34,146 bases of DNA, taken from positions 1,190-35,335 of the IMG/VR virus record IMGVR_UViG_3300030099_005449, one strand, 5' to 3'. A program made the translations under genes and the position numbers. Source of the stretch: a virus. The stretch's first letter is position 1. Each line of letters starts with the position of its first letter. The notes beneath the pieces were generated by a model, which saw only the letters and a list, made by a program, of their open reading frames with translations, had not been told where the DNA came from and ran no database searches. Shown here piece after piece: positions 16,619-32,591 of this stretch.

Positions 16619-18002
16619 AATACATAAAATTTATGGTCCACCTGGAACAGGAAAAACTACTAGACTATTAGAACTTGTACAAAAATATAACATAGAGAAA
16701 GTTGGTTATTTTGCTTTTACTCGTAAGGCTGCAAACGAAGCTAAATATAGAATAAATTTATCTAATAAAAAATTAAAATATTTTCAAACATTACATGCAT
16801 TTGCATTTCATACACTTGGATTAAGTGAGGATAGTGTTATGCAACCCTATCACTATGAAGACTTAGGTAAGATACTTGGTATACGAGTAAACTATGTTGA
16901 TAAATTTAACGATCAACAGATACATTATTTAACATCCGATAATACTTATTTTCAGATTATAAATAAAATGCAAAACCAAGATATTGAAGAGTACGAAGAT
17001 CGAGACATCGATCCAGGTCTTTTGCGTCACATTATTATAAACTTAGCTGAATATAAAAAGAAAAATAATTTATTAGATTTTAACGACATGATAAAAAGAT
17101 TTGTTAACAAACCTGAATTGTGTCCAAACTTTGACGCCGTATTTATTGACGAGGCTCAAGATCTCTCTCCACTACAGTGGAAGATGTATGATATTTTAAA
17201 AACTAAAACTAACAATATGTATCTTGCAGGGGACGATGACCAGGCTATCTATCAATGGGCTGGGGCTGACGTCACACGTTTCATTGAAGAACCAGGCACA
17301 GAACAAATTTTAACTCAATCAAGGCGTATACCAAAATCTATTCAAGAATTATCAAAAGTTATTACTGAGAGAATACAAGGTGTTAAAGTATACAAAAAAT
17401 ATTTACCAAGAGATGTAGAGGGAAGAGTTGAGTATGTCAATAATATTGGTCAGCTACAATTAGAAAAAGGTAAATGGTTAGTTCTTGCAAGAACAAATAC
17501 AAGACTCAAAGATGTAATGAAAAAATTACAAGAGATGGGATTGTATTATCAGTATAAAAAAGGTAAAAGTTTTAAGGCAAAACTTTATAAAACAATTGTT
17601 AATTATACAAGGTGGACTAAAGGCGAGCCATTAGAGGATAATGAAATAAAGGATATATTGGAGTGTTGTGGTAGTAAACCAAATAAATCAAAACCATGGT
17701 ATGAAGTTTTTACAGCGGTGCCTATGGTAGAAAGAGATTATTTAAGACACATGTTGTCAAATGGTGAGAAGTTGTCAGAAGAGGCAAGAATTAAACTATC
17801 AACGATTCATGCAGCTAAAGGTGGTGAAGAAGACTCTGTGGTTTTAATTTTAGATAACTCTAAAAAAATTAGAGATGCAATTATGCATGACAATATTAAA
17901 AGTGACGAAGAGCACAGAGTATGGTATGTTGGTGCAACTCGTGCTAAAAATAATCTTTATTTAATGAGAGCAAAAAAAGAAAGACATGGTTATCAACTAT
18001 GA
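16605..18002 (+). CDS. UvrD/Rep-like SF1 helicase
   Basis: A 465-residue SF1A helicase. Motif I GPPGTGKTT (11-19), Ia FAFTRKAANEA, TLHAFAF (motif Ib region), motif II VFIDEAQDLSP, motif III GDDDQAIYQWAGA, motif IV-type LARTNTRL, motif V STIHAAKGGEED and motif VI VWYVGATRAKNNLYL are all present in order. It is shorter than UvrD (about 720 residues), with a reduced 1B/2B region, as usual for phage versions. It should unwind DNA 3'-5' at the replication fork or in recombination. The start overlaps the primase end and the stop overlaps the next gene (ATGA). Confidence 0.93.
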   Translation: MRSCRIHKIYGPPGTGKTTRLLELVQKYNIEKVGYFAFTRKAANEAKYRINLSNKKLKYFQTLHAFAFHTLGLSEDSVMQPYHYEDLGKILGIRVNYVDKFNDQQIHYLTSDNTYFQIINKMQNQDIEEYEDRDIDPGLLRHIIINLAEYKKKNNLLDFNDMIKRFVNKPELCPNFDAVFIDEAQDLSPLQWKMYDILKTKTNNMYLAGDDDQAIYQWAGADVTRFIEEPGTEQILTQSRRIPKSIQELSKVITERIQGVKVYKKYLPRDVEGRVEYVNNIGQLQLEKGKWLVLARTNTRLKDVMKKLQEMGLYYQYKKGKSFKAKLYKTIVNYTRWTKGEPLEDNEIKDILECCGSKPNKSKPWYEVFTAVPMVERDYLRHMLSNGEKLSEEARIKLSTIHAAKGGEEDSVVLILDNSKKIRDAIMHDNIKSDEEHRVWYVGATRAKNNLYLMRAKKERHGYQL

Positions 18003-18238
18003 CAAATAAATCATTTTTTGAAAATGCATCCGATCGTCAAGAGGGTGGAGATCATTACAAATTAAACATACAACCTTTTGATTTTATTATGAAAAATAAA
18101 TTAAATTTTTTTCAAGGCAATGTAATTAAATATGTTGTTAGGTATTTAAAAAAAGGTAACTCGATAGGAGATTTAAATAAAATAAAACATTATTGTGATT
18201 TAGAAATAGATAGATTGAGAAAGGAATGGGACAAATGA
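17999..18238 (+). CDS. DUF3310 protein
   Basis: A 79-residue product matching the DUF3310 pattern: GGDHYKLNIQPFDFI (16-30), then NVIKYVVRYLKKGNSIGDL (41-59) and a terminal basic helix (KIKHYCDLEIDRLRK). DUF3310 proteins are widespread in phages near nucleotide-metabolism or replication genes and sometimes annotated nucleotide kinase-like; the activity is unproven. Joined to both neighbours by ATGA overlaps, so it is part of the primase-helicase-polymerase operon. Confidence 0.85.
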   Translation: MTNKSFFENASDRQEGGDHYKLNIQPFDFIMKNKLNFFQGNVIKYVVRYLKKGNSIGDLNKIKHYCDLEIDRLRKEWDK

Positions 18239-29705: not shown

Positions 29706-30077
29706 ATGGCTGGTCCAGAGAGTAAATTTTACTCAGAAATAAAAAAATCTTGGACTAAATTTAACCTCACAAGAATAGAAAATATAAGCATTCCAGGCGT
29801 GCCAGACTTGTTGTGCTACAACAAAAATCATTTCTTTTTTACGGTTGAGATGAAGGTAACAACCAACAACAAACTACGCTTCTCACCACATCAAATTGCG
29901 TTTCATATTCGACATCCCTTGAATACGTTTATCATAGCCAAGAGCCTCGGTCATGGAACCGTGAAACTTTATGAAGGACAACAGATCAAGGAGCTTGCTG
30001 CTTGCGGCTTGGAGCTTGATGCTTGCTGCTTGGGGCTTGATGCTTGCGGCTTGTGGCTCGCGGAGCTTGGCGCTTGA
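29706..30077 (+). CDS. VRR-NUC-like PD-(D/E)XK nuclease with repeat-derived tail
   Basis: The first 95 residues are a VRR-NUC type nuclease: ESKFY with Glu5, IPGVPDLLCY with Asp34, FTVEMKV with Glu48 and Lys50, and SPHQIAFH with Gln63. Such enzymes resolve branched DNA. From about residue 96 the protein is AACGLELDACCLGLDACGLW and similar Leu/Ala/Cys repeats, because the gene runs into the GCTTGNN heptad repeat (29993 onward). The original C-terminus was probably at or near IKELA, and the repeat has replaced the normal end. It faces the gp88-like gene. Confidence 0.72.
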   Translation: MAGPESKFYSEIKKSWTKFNLTRIENISIPGVPDLLCYNKNHFFFTVEMKVTTNNKLRFSPHQIAFHIRHPLNTFIIAKSLGHGTVKLYEGQQIKELAACGLELDACCLGLDACGLWLAELGA

Positions 30078-30092
30078 AGCTTGGCGCTCCAG
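29993..30092. repeat. Heptad repeat GCTTGNN, block 1
   Basis: Ten contiguous 7-base units (29993-30062) of the form GCTTG plus two variable bases, one of them GCTCGCG, followed by GA and four more units (30065-30092) degenerating to GCTCCAG. The variable bases differ (CT, CG, GA, AT, GG, TG). Because seven is not a multiple of three, 21 bases give a 7-residue peptide period (D-A-C-G-L-x-L) at the end of the nuclease gene. Confidence 0.9.
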
Positions 30093-30131
30093 GTCCCGGC
30101 AACTCTGTTTAACCGGGCCCAGTCCTGGAGC
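30086..30131. terminator. Hairpin between convergent nuclease and gp88-like genes
   Basis: GCTCCAGG (30086-30093) pairs perfectly with CCTGGAGC (30124-30131), and an inner CCCGG (30095-30099) with CCGGG (30113-30117). The stem-loop fills the 57-base gap between the two converging genes. No U-run follows in either direction, so it may act with Rho or as an mRNA 3'-end protector. Confidence 0.5.
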
Positions 30132-30740: not shown

Positions 30741-30769
30741 ATAATATCCTATTTATTTTTGTTTGTCAA
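30741..30769 (-). promoter_or_regulatory. Leftward promoter of the gp88-like gene, leaderless
   Basis: Read leftward: TTGACA (30769-30764), 17 bases, TATTAT (30746-30741), AGGACT, ATG (30734). Spacing and hexamers are near consensus. The heptad repeat block 2 begins only two bases upstream of the -35. Confidence 0.72.
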
Positions 30770-30770
30770 T

Positions 30771-30805
30771 GCTTGCTGCTTGTCGCTTGCTGCTTGCTGC
30801 TTGTC
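30771..30805. repeat. Heptad repeat GCTTGNN, block 2
   Basis: Five contiguous units (CT, TC, CT, CT, TC in the variable positions), a sixth decayed to GCTTATT. It stands immediately upstream of the gp88 promoter -35 in non-coding DNA. Same orientation as block 1. Confidence 0.85.
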
Positions 30806-30859
30806 GCTTATTTCTTTAAAAAATTTCTTACAGCTTTTTACATAAGAGGCCGGCAGCGT

Positions 30860-30884
30860 GCGATGGTCCTCCAGGAACCATCGC
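30860..30884. terminator. Hairpin after the 31-residue gene
   Basis: GCGATGGTCCT (30860-30870) pairs with AGGAACCATCGC (30873-30884) with a single bulge, two unpaired bases in the loop. It begins 12 bases after the stop of the leftward gene at 30897. A T-run on the leftward strand lies only some 45 bases further, so termination would be weak. Confidence 0.45.
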
Positions 30885-30896
30885 AACAAATTATGT

Positions 30897-30992
30897 TTAC
30901 TCTTGTATCTCATTGCGCTGCATATCTTTTTTAACTAAGCGTAGAATCTCTTCTAACGCATCAGCTATTCTTTTTAAGTTTTCATTGTCCAT
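30897..30992 (-). CDS. Small leftward protein, 31 aa
   Basis: MDNENLKRIADALEEILRLV followed by KKDMQRNEIQE: an amphipathic helical peptide, probably coiled coil. A good Shine-Dalgarno AGAAAGGA lies before the ATG (GTAGAAAGGAATAATT), and a TTGACG-17-TATAGG promoter is 22 bases further up. Short, but promoter, ribosome site and codon use agree. Function unknown. Confidence 0.6.
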   Translation of the reverse strand: MDNENLKRIADALEEILRLVKKDMQRNEIQE

Positions 30993-31013: not shown

Positions 31014-31042
31014 CCTATACCATCCTATACTATAGCCGTCAA
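31014..31042 (-). promoter_or_regulatory. Leftward promoter for the 31-residue gene
   Basis: Read leftward: TTGACG (31042-31037), 17 bases, TATAGG (31019-31014), then 21 bases to the ATG at 30992. The -35 overlaps the stop codon of the upstream RHH-like gene. It carries the TATAGGAT phrase shared with other promoters of the window. Confidence 0.55.
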
Positions 31043-31215
31043 GCTTGCGGCTTGTCGCTTTCGCTTGGAGGTTGATCATCTCCATCTATAATTTGAAACA
31101 TTTCTTCTAATTCACTGTTAAGAAGAGCGTTGGCAGCTCTCTCCGGTATCATATCATTTTTCTTACACCATTGTTTAAATCTTTTTTGAAGATCTTTTCT
31201 AATTTTAATTCTCAT
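31039..31215 (-). CDS. RHH-like small leftward protein, 58 aa
   Basis: MRIKIRKDLQKRFKQWCKKN (1-20) gives a basic strand plus helix, followed by DMIPERAANALLNSELEEMF, which fits the second helix of a ribbon-helix-helix fold. The acidic tail ends SESDKPQA, encoded by decayed heptad repeats. Ribosome site AGAAAGGATATT precedes the ATG. First gene downstream of the structured leader region, so it may regulate its own promoter; inference. Confidence 0.6.
   Translation of the reverse strand: MRIKIRKDLQKRFKQWCKKNDMIPERAANALLNSELEEMFQIIDGDDQPPSESDKPQA
31043..31069. repeat. Heptad repeat GCTTGNN, block 3
   Basis: GCTTGCG, GCTTGTC, a 6-base GCTTTC and GCTTGGA, inside the 3' end of the RHH-like gene, where they read (complementary strand) as codons for PSESDKPQA. 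Same direction as blocks 1, 2 and 4. Confidence 0.7.
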
Positions 31216-31242
31216 AATATCCTTTCTATATAAATCCTCGTT

Positions 31243-31256
31243 GCTTGAGGCTTGAA
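31243..31256. repeat. Heptad repeat GCTTGNN, block 4
   Basis: Two units, GCTTGAG and GCTTGAA, directly before the first stem of the structured region. Two copies alone could be chance; the identity with three nearby blocks makes relation likely. Confidence 0.45.
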
Positions 31257-31257
31257 C

Positions 31258-31468
31258 CCAGGCCGCCAGAGTCTCTGTGTTCTAGCGGCGGCGGCGCGGC
31301 CTGGATCCAGCGGCTCAGGCCCCGCGTTTTACCTTATCAGCCGACGGGAGTCTGAGCCACTCGATCCAAGTCGCTGGCCCGATAGCCTAGGATGACCGGG
31401 CCAGCGCGTTTAAACAACGGGGGTGAAGTCATTAGCCCTCAGTGATCAAGAGAAGACCGTCCACCCCC
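31258..31468 (-). ncRNA. Candidate structured RNA or 5' leader, four consecutive hairpins
   Basis: About 210 bases without a credible coding frame; I count 64% G+C for 31261-31440 in an otherwise AT-rich phage. Four perfect inverted repeats follow each other: CCAGGCCGC/GCGGCCTGG (31258-31266, 31296-31304), GGCTCAG/CTGAGCC (31312-31318, 31352-31358) with an inner CCCG/CGGG, CGCTGGCCCG/CGGGCCAGCG (31372-31381, 31397-31406), and GGGGGTG/CACCCCC (31419-31425, 31462-31468). CTGGATCCAG (31301-31310) is a further palindrome. A leftward promoter at 31503-31531 would transcribe it ahead of the RHH-like gene. The strand is inferred from that promoter; the stems exist on either strand. A DNA-level site (origin, packaging) is the alternative. 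Confidence 0.5.
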
Positions 31469-31502
31469 TAAGGATATATTCACTAAAAAATGAATACACT
31501 CC

Positions 31503-31543
31503 CATATAATCCTATTGACATTGTTTGTCAAGGGGTATATAAA
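31503..31543. promoter_or_regulatory. Two-way promoter with a shared palindromic -35
   Basis: TTGACA-TTGTT-TGTCAA (31515-31531) supplies a consensus -35 in both directions. Rightward: TTGACA (31515-31520), 17 bases, TATAAA (31538-31543), for the gene at 31566. Leftward: TTGACA (31531-31526), 17 bases, TATATG (31508-31503), into the structured region. The two promoters overlap by the -35 boxes, so only one polymerase can bind at a time; the palindrome could also be an operator. Confidence 0.75.
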
Positions 31544-31565
31544 TTTTTTAACGAAAGGATATAAA

Positions 31566-32537
31566 ATGCAAACACAAACAAAAGACTTTAGACTAAACGC
31601 ACAAAAGCGTAAGTCTTTAGTATCGCATTACGAAGATCATCTTCGTAATAAAAGAACAAGAGTTCGCATGGCTTATGATGAAGCCAAAGAGAACTTTGTA
31701 GAACTGCAACCTAAAATCTGGGAACTGATAACTAAGATTGTTAGGAAACATCAACCACAACAAGACGTAGATACCATTAACTCCATGATTGATAAATACG
31801 GAGATAACGGGGGTCGTGTGCATGATGACGCTTGTTTTAATTTTATCTGTCCAACTGAGGAAAGGGACAGCGAGGGTACTGTGACAAGCACTAATGATAA
31901 CAACCTACATCTTGACATGAAACTAGACGCTAATGTTGATTGTAGTTATGATAATAGATTTGCCTATGCTTATTATTATGATGATTTAAAACAACATGGC
32001 TTAGACCCAGACTTTGAGTATAGGTGGGGAGATAAAAAAAATCCTAGATATTATGAAACTGAAAGTGAGGTTAGAGAGTTTATAGGTTTTAGTCGTAATA
32101 AAAATGATGACGATAAAAATAAACCTATCAATGACCCATTTTGGAAACATACTATTCCTGTTATTGGAACGAGTTATTGTGGTTCTAGGAATTTTAAGGT
32201 TGATGACATTACACACTCAACCTTAAATCAATTTAAAATAGCACAACAAGAGTTAGTTAGAACTCACGAAGCTATGTTCACTTATATTAATGATAAGGTG
32301 ACTAAGATCGAGCAAGGTTTAAAATCTTATACTAAGTACAGTCAAGCAAAACAATTGTTTGATAAACTTGGCATACCTTTAAATGAAGCTATGCTTGACG
32401 ATCAGTCTACAATGGCTTTAAGTGTATTCAGTCCCGAGAACTTGGCGGATATGCTTACAGACAAAGATGACGAGTTTGAAAATCGAGAAGCTAAGATCGC
32501 TCACTTTAGAGCATTACAAAGTGCAAGTGTAAATTAA
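31566..32537 (+). CDS. Large soluble probable early protein, 323 aa
   Basis: I start at ATG 31566 (MQTQTKDFRLNAQKRKSLVS), preceded by AACGAAAGGATAT; an in-frame TTG at 31515 is the -35 box itself and cannot be a start. The protein is charged and mainly helical, with DEAKENFVELQPKIWELITK in the N-terminal part, a Tyr/Asp-rich middle (FAYAYYYDDLKQHGLDPDFE), and a helical C-terminal third (KVTKIEQGLKSYTKYSQAKQ). I recognise no family and no catalytic motif. The strongest promoter of the window and the first position in the operon suggest an early, abundantly made host-takeover protein. Confidence 0.75.
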   Translation: MQTQTKDFRLNAQKRKSLVSHYEDHLRNKRTRVRMAYDEAKENFVELQPKIWELITKIVRKHQPQQDVDTINSMIDKYGDNGGRVHDDACFNFICPTEERDSEGTVTSTNDNNLHLDMKLDANVDCSYDNRFAYAYYYDDLKQHGLDPDFEYRWGDKKNPRYYETESEVREFIGFSRNKNDDDKNKPINDPFWKHTIPVIGTSYCGSRNFKVDDITHSTLNQFKIAQQELVRTHEAMFTYINDKVTKIEQGLKSYTKYSQAKQLFDKLGIPLNEAMLDDQSTMALSVFSPENLADMLTDKDDEFENREAKIAHFRALQSASVN

Positions 32538-32540
32538 GAC

Positions 32541-32573
32541 TTGACGAGGTATCCTATTTAATATAGGATACCT
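32541..32573. promoter_or_regulatory. Inverted repeat AGGTATCCTAT next to TTGACG
   Basis: TTGACG (32541-32546) is followed by AGGTATCCTAT (32547-32557), TTAAT, ATAGGATACCT (32563-32573): an 11-bp perfect inverted repeat. It can be a promoter (-10 near TAGGAT, 17 bases from TTGACG) with operator, or a low-GC terminator of the 31566 gene; no T-run follows. The ATAGGAT half recurs near several promoters here. Confidence 0.55.
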
Positions 32574-32591
32574 CTAACGAAAGGATATATT

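Follow-up and report, generated by a model that had tools for sequence, protein, structure and literature searches.

A hairpin array beside a two-way promoter of an HTVC027P-like pelagiphage probably encodes a structured RNA built of exchangeable modules

What does a G+C-rich, hairpin-filled gap of 350 nt do next to a two-way promoter in an A+T-rich phage? The gap (31216-31565) is situated in the window, i.e. the whole stretch of 34,146 nucleotides that was analysed, which itself is part of a 35.3-kb virus record. Judged from its genes, the window represents part of a pelagiphage of the HTVC027P/HTVC023P type. Specifically, its DNA polymerase is 65% identical to the enzyme of pelagiphage HTVC027P, and the 340-aa gene on the right-hand side of the gap is related (29%) to HTVC027P gp35. 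To the left of the gap, on the other strand, are a 58-aa ORF, a GP88-family gene and the small terminase subunit; the gene order at the same locus of HTVC027P is gp35, gap, gp34, gp33 (the GP88 homologue), gp32 and gp29 (TerS). HTVC027P-type phages are reportedly among the most abundant SAR11 phages (PMC11066056). In HTVC027P, gp33 and gp34 lie directly leftward of the gap and make up a separate temporal expression cluster that is high at 6-9 hours (PMC12753301). Transcription of the gap itself is something we infer, because that transcriptome, the only one found for such a phage, was published at gene level and does not mention intergenic or non-coding transcripts. A link to ribosome-deprived 'zombie' cells (PMC11066056) was considered and dropped; such cells are also seen with pelagiphage HTVC031P.

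The G+C content of 31261-31440 is 63.9%, in good agreement with the originally predicted value of about 64%, and this is the richest 180-nt stretch of a window that has 36.0% overall. When the window was scanned in 350-nt tiles for perfect stems of 7 bp or more whose arm has five or more G+C, 31216-31565 contained exactly four of them, the number and size (7-10 bp) claimed before, whereas no other tile has more than one (mean 0.11). The folding z-score of the gap is −6.6 for the plus and −8.2 for the minus strand, and none of 100 shuffled sequences was as stable. It had also been said that no known RNA can be recognised here; Rfam gives no family match in the window or the gap, and a permissive threshold applied to the gap yields chance-level scores only. 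A DNA search of annotated phages with 31100-31700 did not find a close relative. A coding function of the array was rejected, as all three leftward frames contain stops; the plus strand of the gap has one 47-aa ORF with a TTG start. A search for sequences antisense to the phage itself returned nothing notable (three 12-nt matches, counted without a chance baseline).

The leftward consensus promoter of the original prediction is present as TTGACA-17-TATATG, and many relatives have TTGACA-17-TATATA/G at the equivalent site. A generic promoter scanner misses it because the scanner demands a −10 box ending with T. The two-way character of the region also stands: a rightward promoter-like site overlaps the leftward one, and the TTGACA...TGTCAA arrangement is found again in relatives. 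Read leftward from 31503-31531, the RNA would consist of a 5' hairpin followed by four G+C-rich hairpins:

31515-31544, plus strand: rightward promoter-like site TTGACA ... TATAAA for the 340-aa gp35-type gene, overlapping the leftward promoter
31503-31531, minus strand: leftward promoter TTGACA-17-TATATG, assigned by sequence, with the start expected near 31496-31497
31216-31497, minus strand: predicted structured non-coding RNA or leader of about 282 nt, stops in all leftward frames
31474-31497, minus strand: predicted 5'-terminal A+T-rich hairpin of the RNA, from the fold
31419-31468, minus strand: predicted hairpin 4, GGGGGTG/CACCCCC with a long tip (perfect stem 4, 7 bp, 31419-31468); other hairpins occupy this site in relatives
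31372-31406, minus strand: predicted hairpin 3, CGCTGGCCCG/CGGGCCAGCG, from the stem scan and relatives (perfect stem 3, 10 bp, 31372-31406)
31303-31367, minus strand: predicted hairpin 2 with a type A foot (TTGGATnnAGTG ... CGCTGGATCC on the RNA) and the tip core CGUCGGCUGAUAAGGUAAAACGC (perfect stem 2, 7 bp, 31312-31358)
31258-31304, minus strand: predicted hairpin 1, CCAGGCCGC/GCGGCCTGG, tip sequence GCUAGAACACAGAGACUCUG (perfect stem 1, 9 bp, 31258-31304)
31236-31250, minus strand: predicted short 3' hairpin within a CAAGCNN-type repeat, preceding the ribosome-binding site
31042-31215, minus strand: 58-aa ORF, weakly RHH/Arc-like, directly after the array, with AGAAAGG 5' of the ATG

A hairpin similar to the 5'-terminal one is found at the same place in contigs L033, L035, L003, L036 and L031. 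In L001, one G-C pair of hairpin 3 has become G.U on the leftward RNA.

Viral contigs related to the window were collected through homologues of the 340-aa gene. The gaps upstream of these homologues are G+C-rich and filled with hairpins, and their sequences differ. Among 61 distinct gaps, 49 have hairpins of 10 bp or more that include five or more G+C pairs; for stretches of gp35 coding sequence the figure is 5 of 65. The position is constant, with a gp35-type gene on one side and the leftward gp34/GP88/TerS genes on the other, and most of the phages have hairpin arrays there; the array of the window lies in this very setting together with a leftward promoter. The array must be dispensable in some relatives, since L006, L040, L041 and L051 lack a G+C-rich one. 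Pattern matches in L012, L015, L017, L020, L023, L024, L026 and L032 fall within coding sequence and were discarded as chance. Two other kinds of sequence were noticed in relatives' gaps. L083, L091 and L092, which are more distant relatives, share another conserved module of about 125 nt (TAAGTTGTGG...AATATTCGCCC...CACAACTTA on the RNA strand). The gaps of L006, L007, L040, L013, L016 and L019 contain several copies of GCATGTGGGCGGGACCCACCC, often two per gap, with an A run after them (or, on the other strand, a T run), and GCGACA/TGTCGC inverted repeats occur in the same gaps.

The mismatches in these helices tell the two strands apart. In a symmetric scan of 73 distinct gap helices, the plus strand has 75 A.C and only 22 G.T mismatches, an A.C share of 0.773 where base composition predicts 0.516; A.C is in excess in 38 helices and G.T in 5. 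An A.C on the plus strand is a G.U wobble on the leftward RNA. The p-values of the strand comparison, about 1e-6 to 1e-7, are indicative, as they ignore relatedness, and neither the strand counts nor the covariation counts are independent across related phages. The same scan of the gp35 coding sequence shows no A.C excess. Moreover, in 34 of 35 gaps the more stable fold is that of the minus strand (mean z −4.6 vs −3.4).

Compensatory change in homologues, the check proposed along with the original prediction, was then clearly evident and points to the same leftward strand. Eighteen hairpins with the foot of the window's hairpin 2 (type A) were aligned on their arms; they are those of 20 pattern matches that form at least five of eight inner pairs. 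Paired cells amount to 92% as compared to 75.7% in shuffles, and both sides have changed in 57 cells as compared to 15.7. The covariation score is 0.493, vs 0.150 for shuffles and at most 0.109 when the partner is slid by 1-3 bases. Feet of types B, C and D follow the same plan as type A, which we describe as a predicted helix, a 1x1 mismatch, a 3-bp helix, a second 1x1 mismatch and then a variable stem. Taken as sequence comparison, these results make it very probable that the gap encodes a structured RNA read leftward.

In HTVC027P the syntenic gap, in the region 17,670-18,219 of MN698241, contains a full-length match to Rfam RF02976, the Flavobacterium-1 RNA, on the leftward strand (90.2 bits; cut-off 58.9). 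The core pattern of this RNA is found in at least 120 viral contigs and in five genome contigs. Among the latter, one is a real match, L245, from a single-cell Flavobacterium assembly; L246 and L247 have no Flavobacterium-1 match by Rfam, and L243 and L244 were set aside on reading their sequences. In at least 47 of the 120 viral contigs listed, the RNA is followed by the leftward genes on its own strand and preceded by a gp35-type gene on the opposite one. Among the matches listed, the neighbouring modules upstream of the RNA are the same in about half of the viral loci. By the distribution of its matches, the Rfam 'Flavobacterium-1' RNA is mainly a phage RNA. It is also found elsewhere in the genome, in 38 of the 120 listed contigs (L123-L242), and in L126 it stands apart from its usual neighbouring modules.

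Between hairpin C and the Flavobacterium-1 RNA, the HTVC027P array has a domain of about 115 nt on the same strand, with a constant UAAACACUAUA and covarying arms; 17 of its 30 predicted pairs show a double compensatory change. A covariance model of this new TAAAC domain, R1, matches HTVC027P, L066, L072, L090, L099, L245 and others, including members outside the training set, and always on the leftward strand where the match can be placed. Neither RF02976, even at permissive thresholds and searched against both the window and the gap, nor R1 has a match in the window; the window therefore has a module combination of its own at this shared locus.

The tips of the window's hairpins have been conserved in a different way from their stems. 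The tip of hairpin 1, GCUAGAACACAGAGACUCUG on the RNA, is found in 18 other viral contigs. Many of these have the outer stem GAUCAGUCAACGC/GCGUUGGCUGGUC and not the window's CCAGGCCGC/GCGGCCUGG; in L260 the stem is close to that of the window. The tip core of hairpin 2, CGUCGGCUGAUAAGGUAAAACGC, is on a type B foot in L266 and L267. Together, the tip cores of hairpins 1 and 2 occur in 20 other viral contigs, some of them on clearly different stems or feet, and in 19 of the 20 the core is followed by leftward genes on the same strand. Both window hairpins thus have a shared tip core on a stem or foot that can be exchanged. More generally, when cores shared among 224 pooled gaps but with diverged flanks were compared in pairs, both members had good but different stems in 2.1% of cases vs 0.24% expected from the squared single-site baseline, about 9-fold more, the pairs not being independent. 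A 38-nt core in L195 and L217 is an example. We searched the literature and did not find exchange of tips between stems and feet described. The pattern marks the tips as the likely functional parts of the modules, and on comparative grounds a modular locus is nearly as well supported as the structured RNA.

Strand bias, covariation, tip reuse and the presence of Flavobacterium-1 and the 115-nt domain therefore suggest a structured non-coding RNA composed of exchangeable modules. Our best explanation overall, to which we assign a probability of roughly 0.7, is a structured, modular leftward RNA; the support is comparative (selection on the RNA strand, covariation, tip reuse and synteny). The mechanism that we propose for it, work in trans as a decoy or scaffold, is less certain. 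The window array would be one version of an RNA locus with a fixed place in HTVC027P/HTVC023P-like phages. Conserved tips would be carried on exchangeable stems and conserved feet, and whole modules would be gained, lost and moved. The RNA may act early to middle in infection, its tips binding a host or phage protein or RNA. Action in trans seems to us somewhat better founded than control in cis; that the RNA is a multivalent decoy or scaffold is a guess that could easily be wrong. Two considerations favour it over a leader: conserved tips on free stems are expected of presented binding sites, and a locus that stays in place while its content changes is reminiscent of one for accessory genes.

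The strongest competitor, to which we give perhaps one chance in a few, is a cis-acting leader, with the array as a 5' untranslated region that controls translation or mRNA stability of the next gene, e.g. by forming a 5' structure that stabilises the message. An RHH-like ORF with its ribosome-binding site comes directly after the array in the window and in L005/L025, with no convincing promoter in between, and here the RNA probably doubles as leader of this gene. However, the gene that follows differs among relatives, and many of them have a second leftward promoter-like site (TTGACA...TATAGG) after the array and before that gene. In many relatives the next gene is thus a different one with a promoter-like site to itself, so the RNA does not belong to the RHH-like gene alone; the originally predicted position before such a gene applies to the window but not to many relatives. 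In relatives without the RHH-like gene, it would be a leader or a separate transcript ending before the next promoter-like site. A leader also leaves the kept tips on changing stems unexplained. As for the label 'RHH-like', the match of the 58-aa ORF to the PHROG Arc-like repressor (E=0.074) and that of a homologue, used as query, to Pfam RHH_10 (E=0.081) give it weak support.

Much less probable is a terminator or insulator, with the hairpins ending transcription or keeping it apart at the divergent promoter. Stable hairpins rich in G+C and placed between transcription units would suit this, and one copy in L004/L005 bears five or six consecutive T on the plus strand, but the terminator scan of 31216-31500 detected no G+C-rich stem with a T run, and serial hairpins with conserved tips right after a promoter are unexpected in a terminator. 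Least probable, by a small step, is a DNA element, in which the inverted repeats would serve as an origin of replication, a packaging site or a substrate for recombination (imperfect mobile hairpins whose interiors vary). The array does adjoin terminase genes between divergent transcription units, its modules clearly move and CAAGCNN repeats flank the arrays. However, G.T and A.C should be equally acceptable in hairpin DNA, and a curated RNA family makes up part of the HTVC027P locus on the leftward strand. A conserved DNA site, the alternative that would have spoken against the original prediction, is disfavoured, since only one strand tolerates changes of the G.U type and since the stems are free to exchange their sequences and do not conserve them.

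For the structured modular RNA, the nearest known things are the Flavobacterium-1 RNA, GOLLD/ROOL and the T4 PeSLs, and its form is new. Flavobacterium-1 is likewise a structured RNA, on the leftward strand of the same syntenic gap in HTVC027P; it is one module among many, is absent from the window and has a name that suggests a bacterial RNA. GOLLD and ROOL are large structured non-coding phage RNAs of unknown function (PMC12286853). The window array is also a predicted structured phage RNA with no assigned function, but Rfam models of GOLLD, ROOL and other phage RNAs have no match in the window or the gap. Moreover, those RNAs have one elaborate fold and are located near tRNA islands, whereas the window locus would consist of exchangeable hairpins lined up next to a divergent promoter. 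The promoter-terminator stem-loops (PeSLs) of T4-like phages, the subject of Comeau et al. 2014, are reportedly linked with module shuffling in phages. The coupling of a promoter to stem-loops and the shuffling of modules are shared with our locus, but here there are several long hairpins per promoter, with conserved tips and varying stems, and the window's array has a promoter and no terminator-type stem-loop or tail. A search of the literature did not find an RNA gene described at this pelagiphage locus.

If our reading is true, HTVC027P-type phages have an RNA gene with a fixed position and promoter whose content changes one module at a time, and the 'bacterial' family Flavobacterium-1 is mainly a phage RNA belonging to this pelagiphage RNA gene. 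A speculative extension, in our opinion rather doubtful, is that the locus is a combinatorial RNA island, in which tips, each probably with a different host or phage target, are mounted on interchangeable stems at one locus behind one promoter and are swapped between phages like accessory or anti-defence genes. Expression and structure are directly testable because the HTVC027P isolate and its host, HTCC1062, are in culture.

Several smaller features were observed around the array. Tandem 7-bp repeats GCTTGNN/CAAGCNN are present at 29993-30083, 30771-30803, 31043-31054 and 31243-31254 (16 matches of a 12-mer vs 0.09 expected). They flank the arrays of relatives and encode Q/A/S/K/P-rich C-terminal tails of leftward proteins, and modules could be exchanged along them as seams. 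Between convergent genes at 30086-30131 there is a hairpin, GCTCCAGG-30 nt-CCTGGAGC, whose stem and loop are the same in L001, L004, L005 and L008, unlike the variable hairpins of the array. Another, TGCGATGGT/ACCATCGCA at 30859-30885, lies within a small leftward ORF (30752-30913); a similar hairpin in L004 and L031 has CGCGTGGT/ACCACGCG, as if RNA structure and protein were both kept. Finally, a 12-bp hairpin, GAGGTATCCTAT-TTAAT-ATAGGATACCTC, is located at 32546-32574 just after the 340-aa gene, and in relatives its ends have changed yet are still paired.
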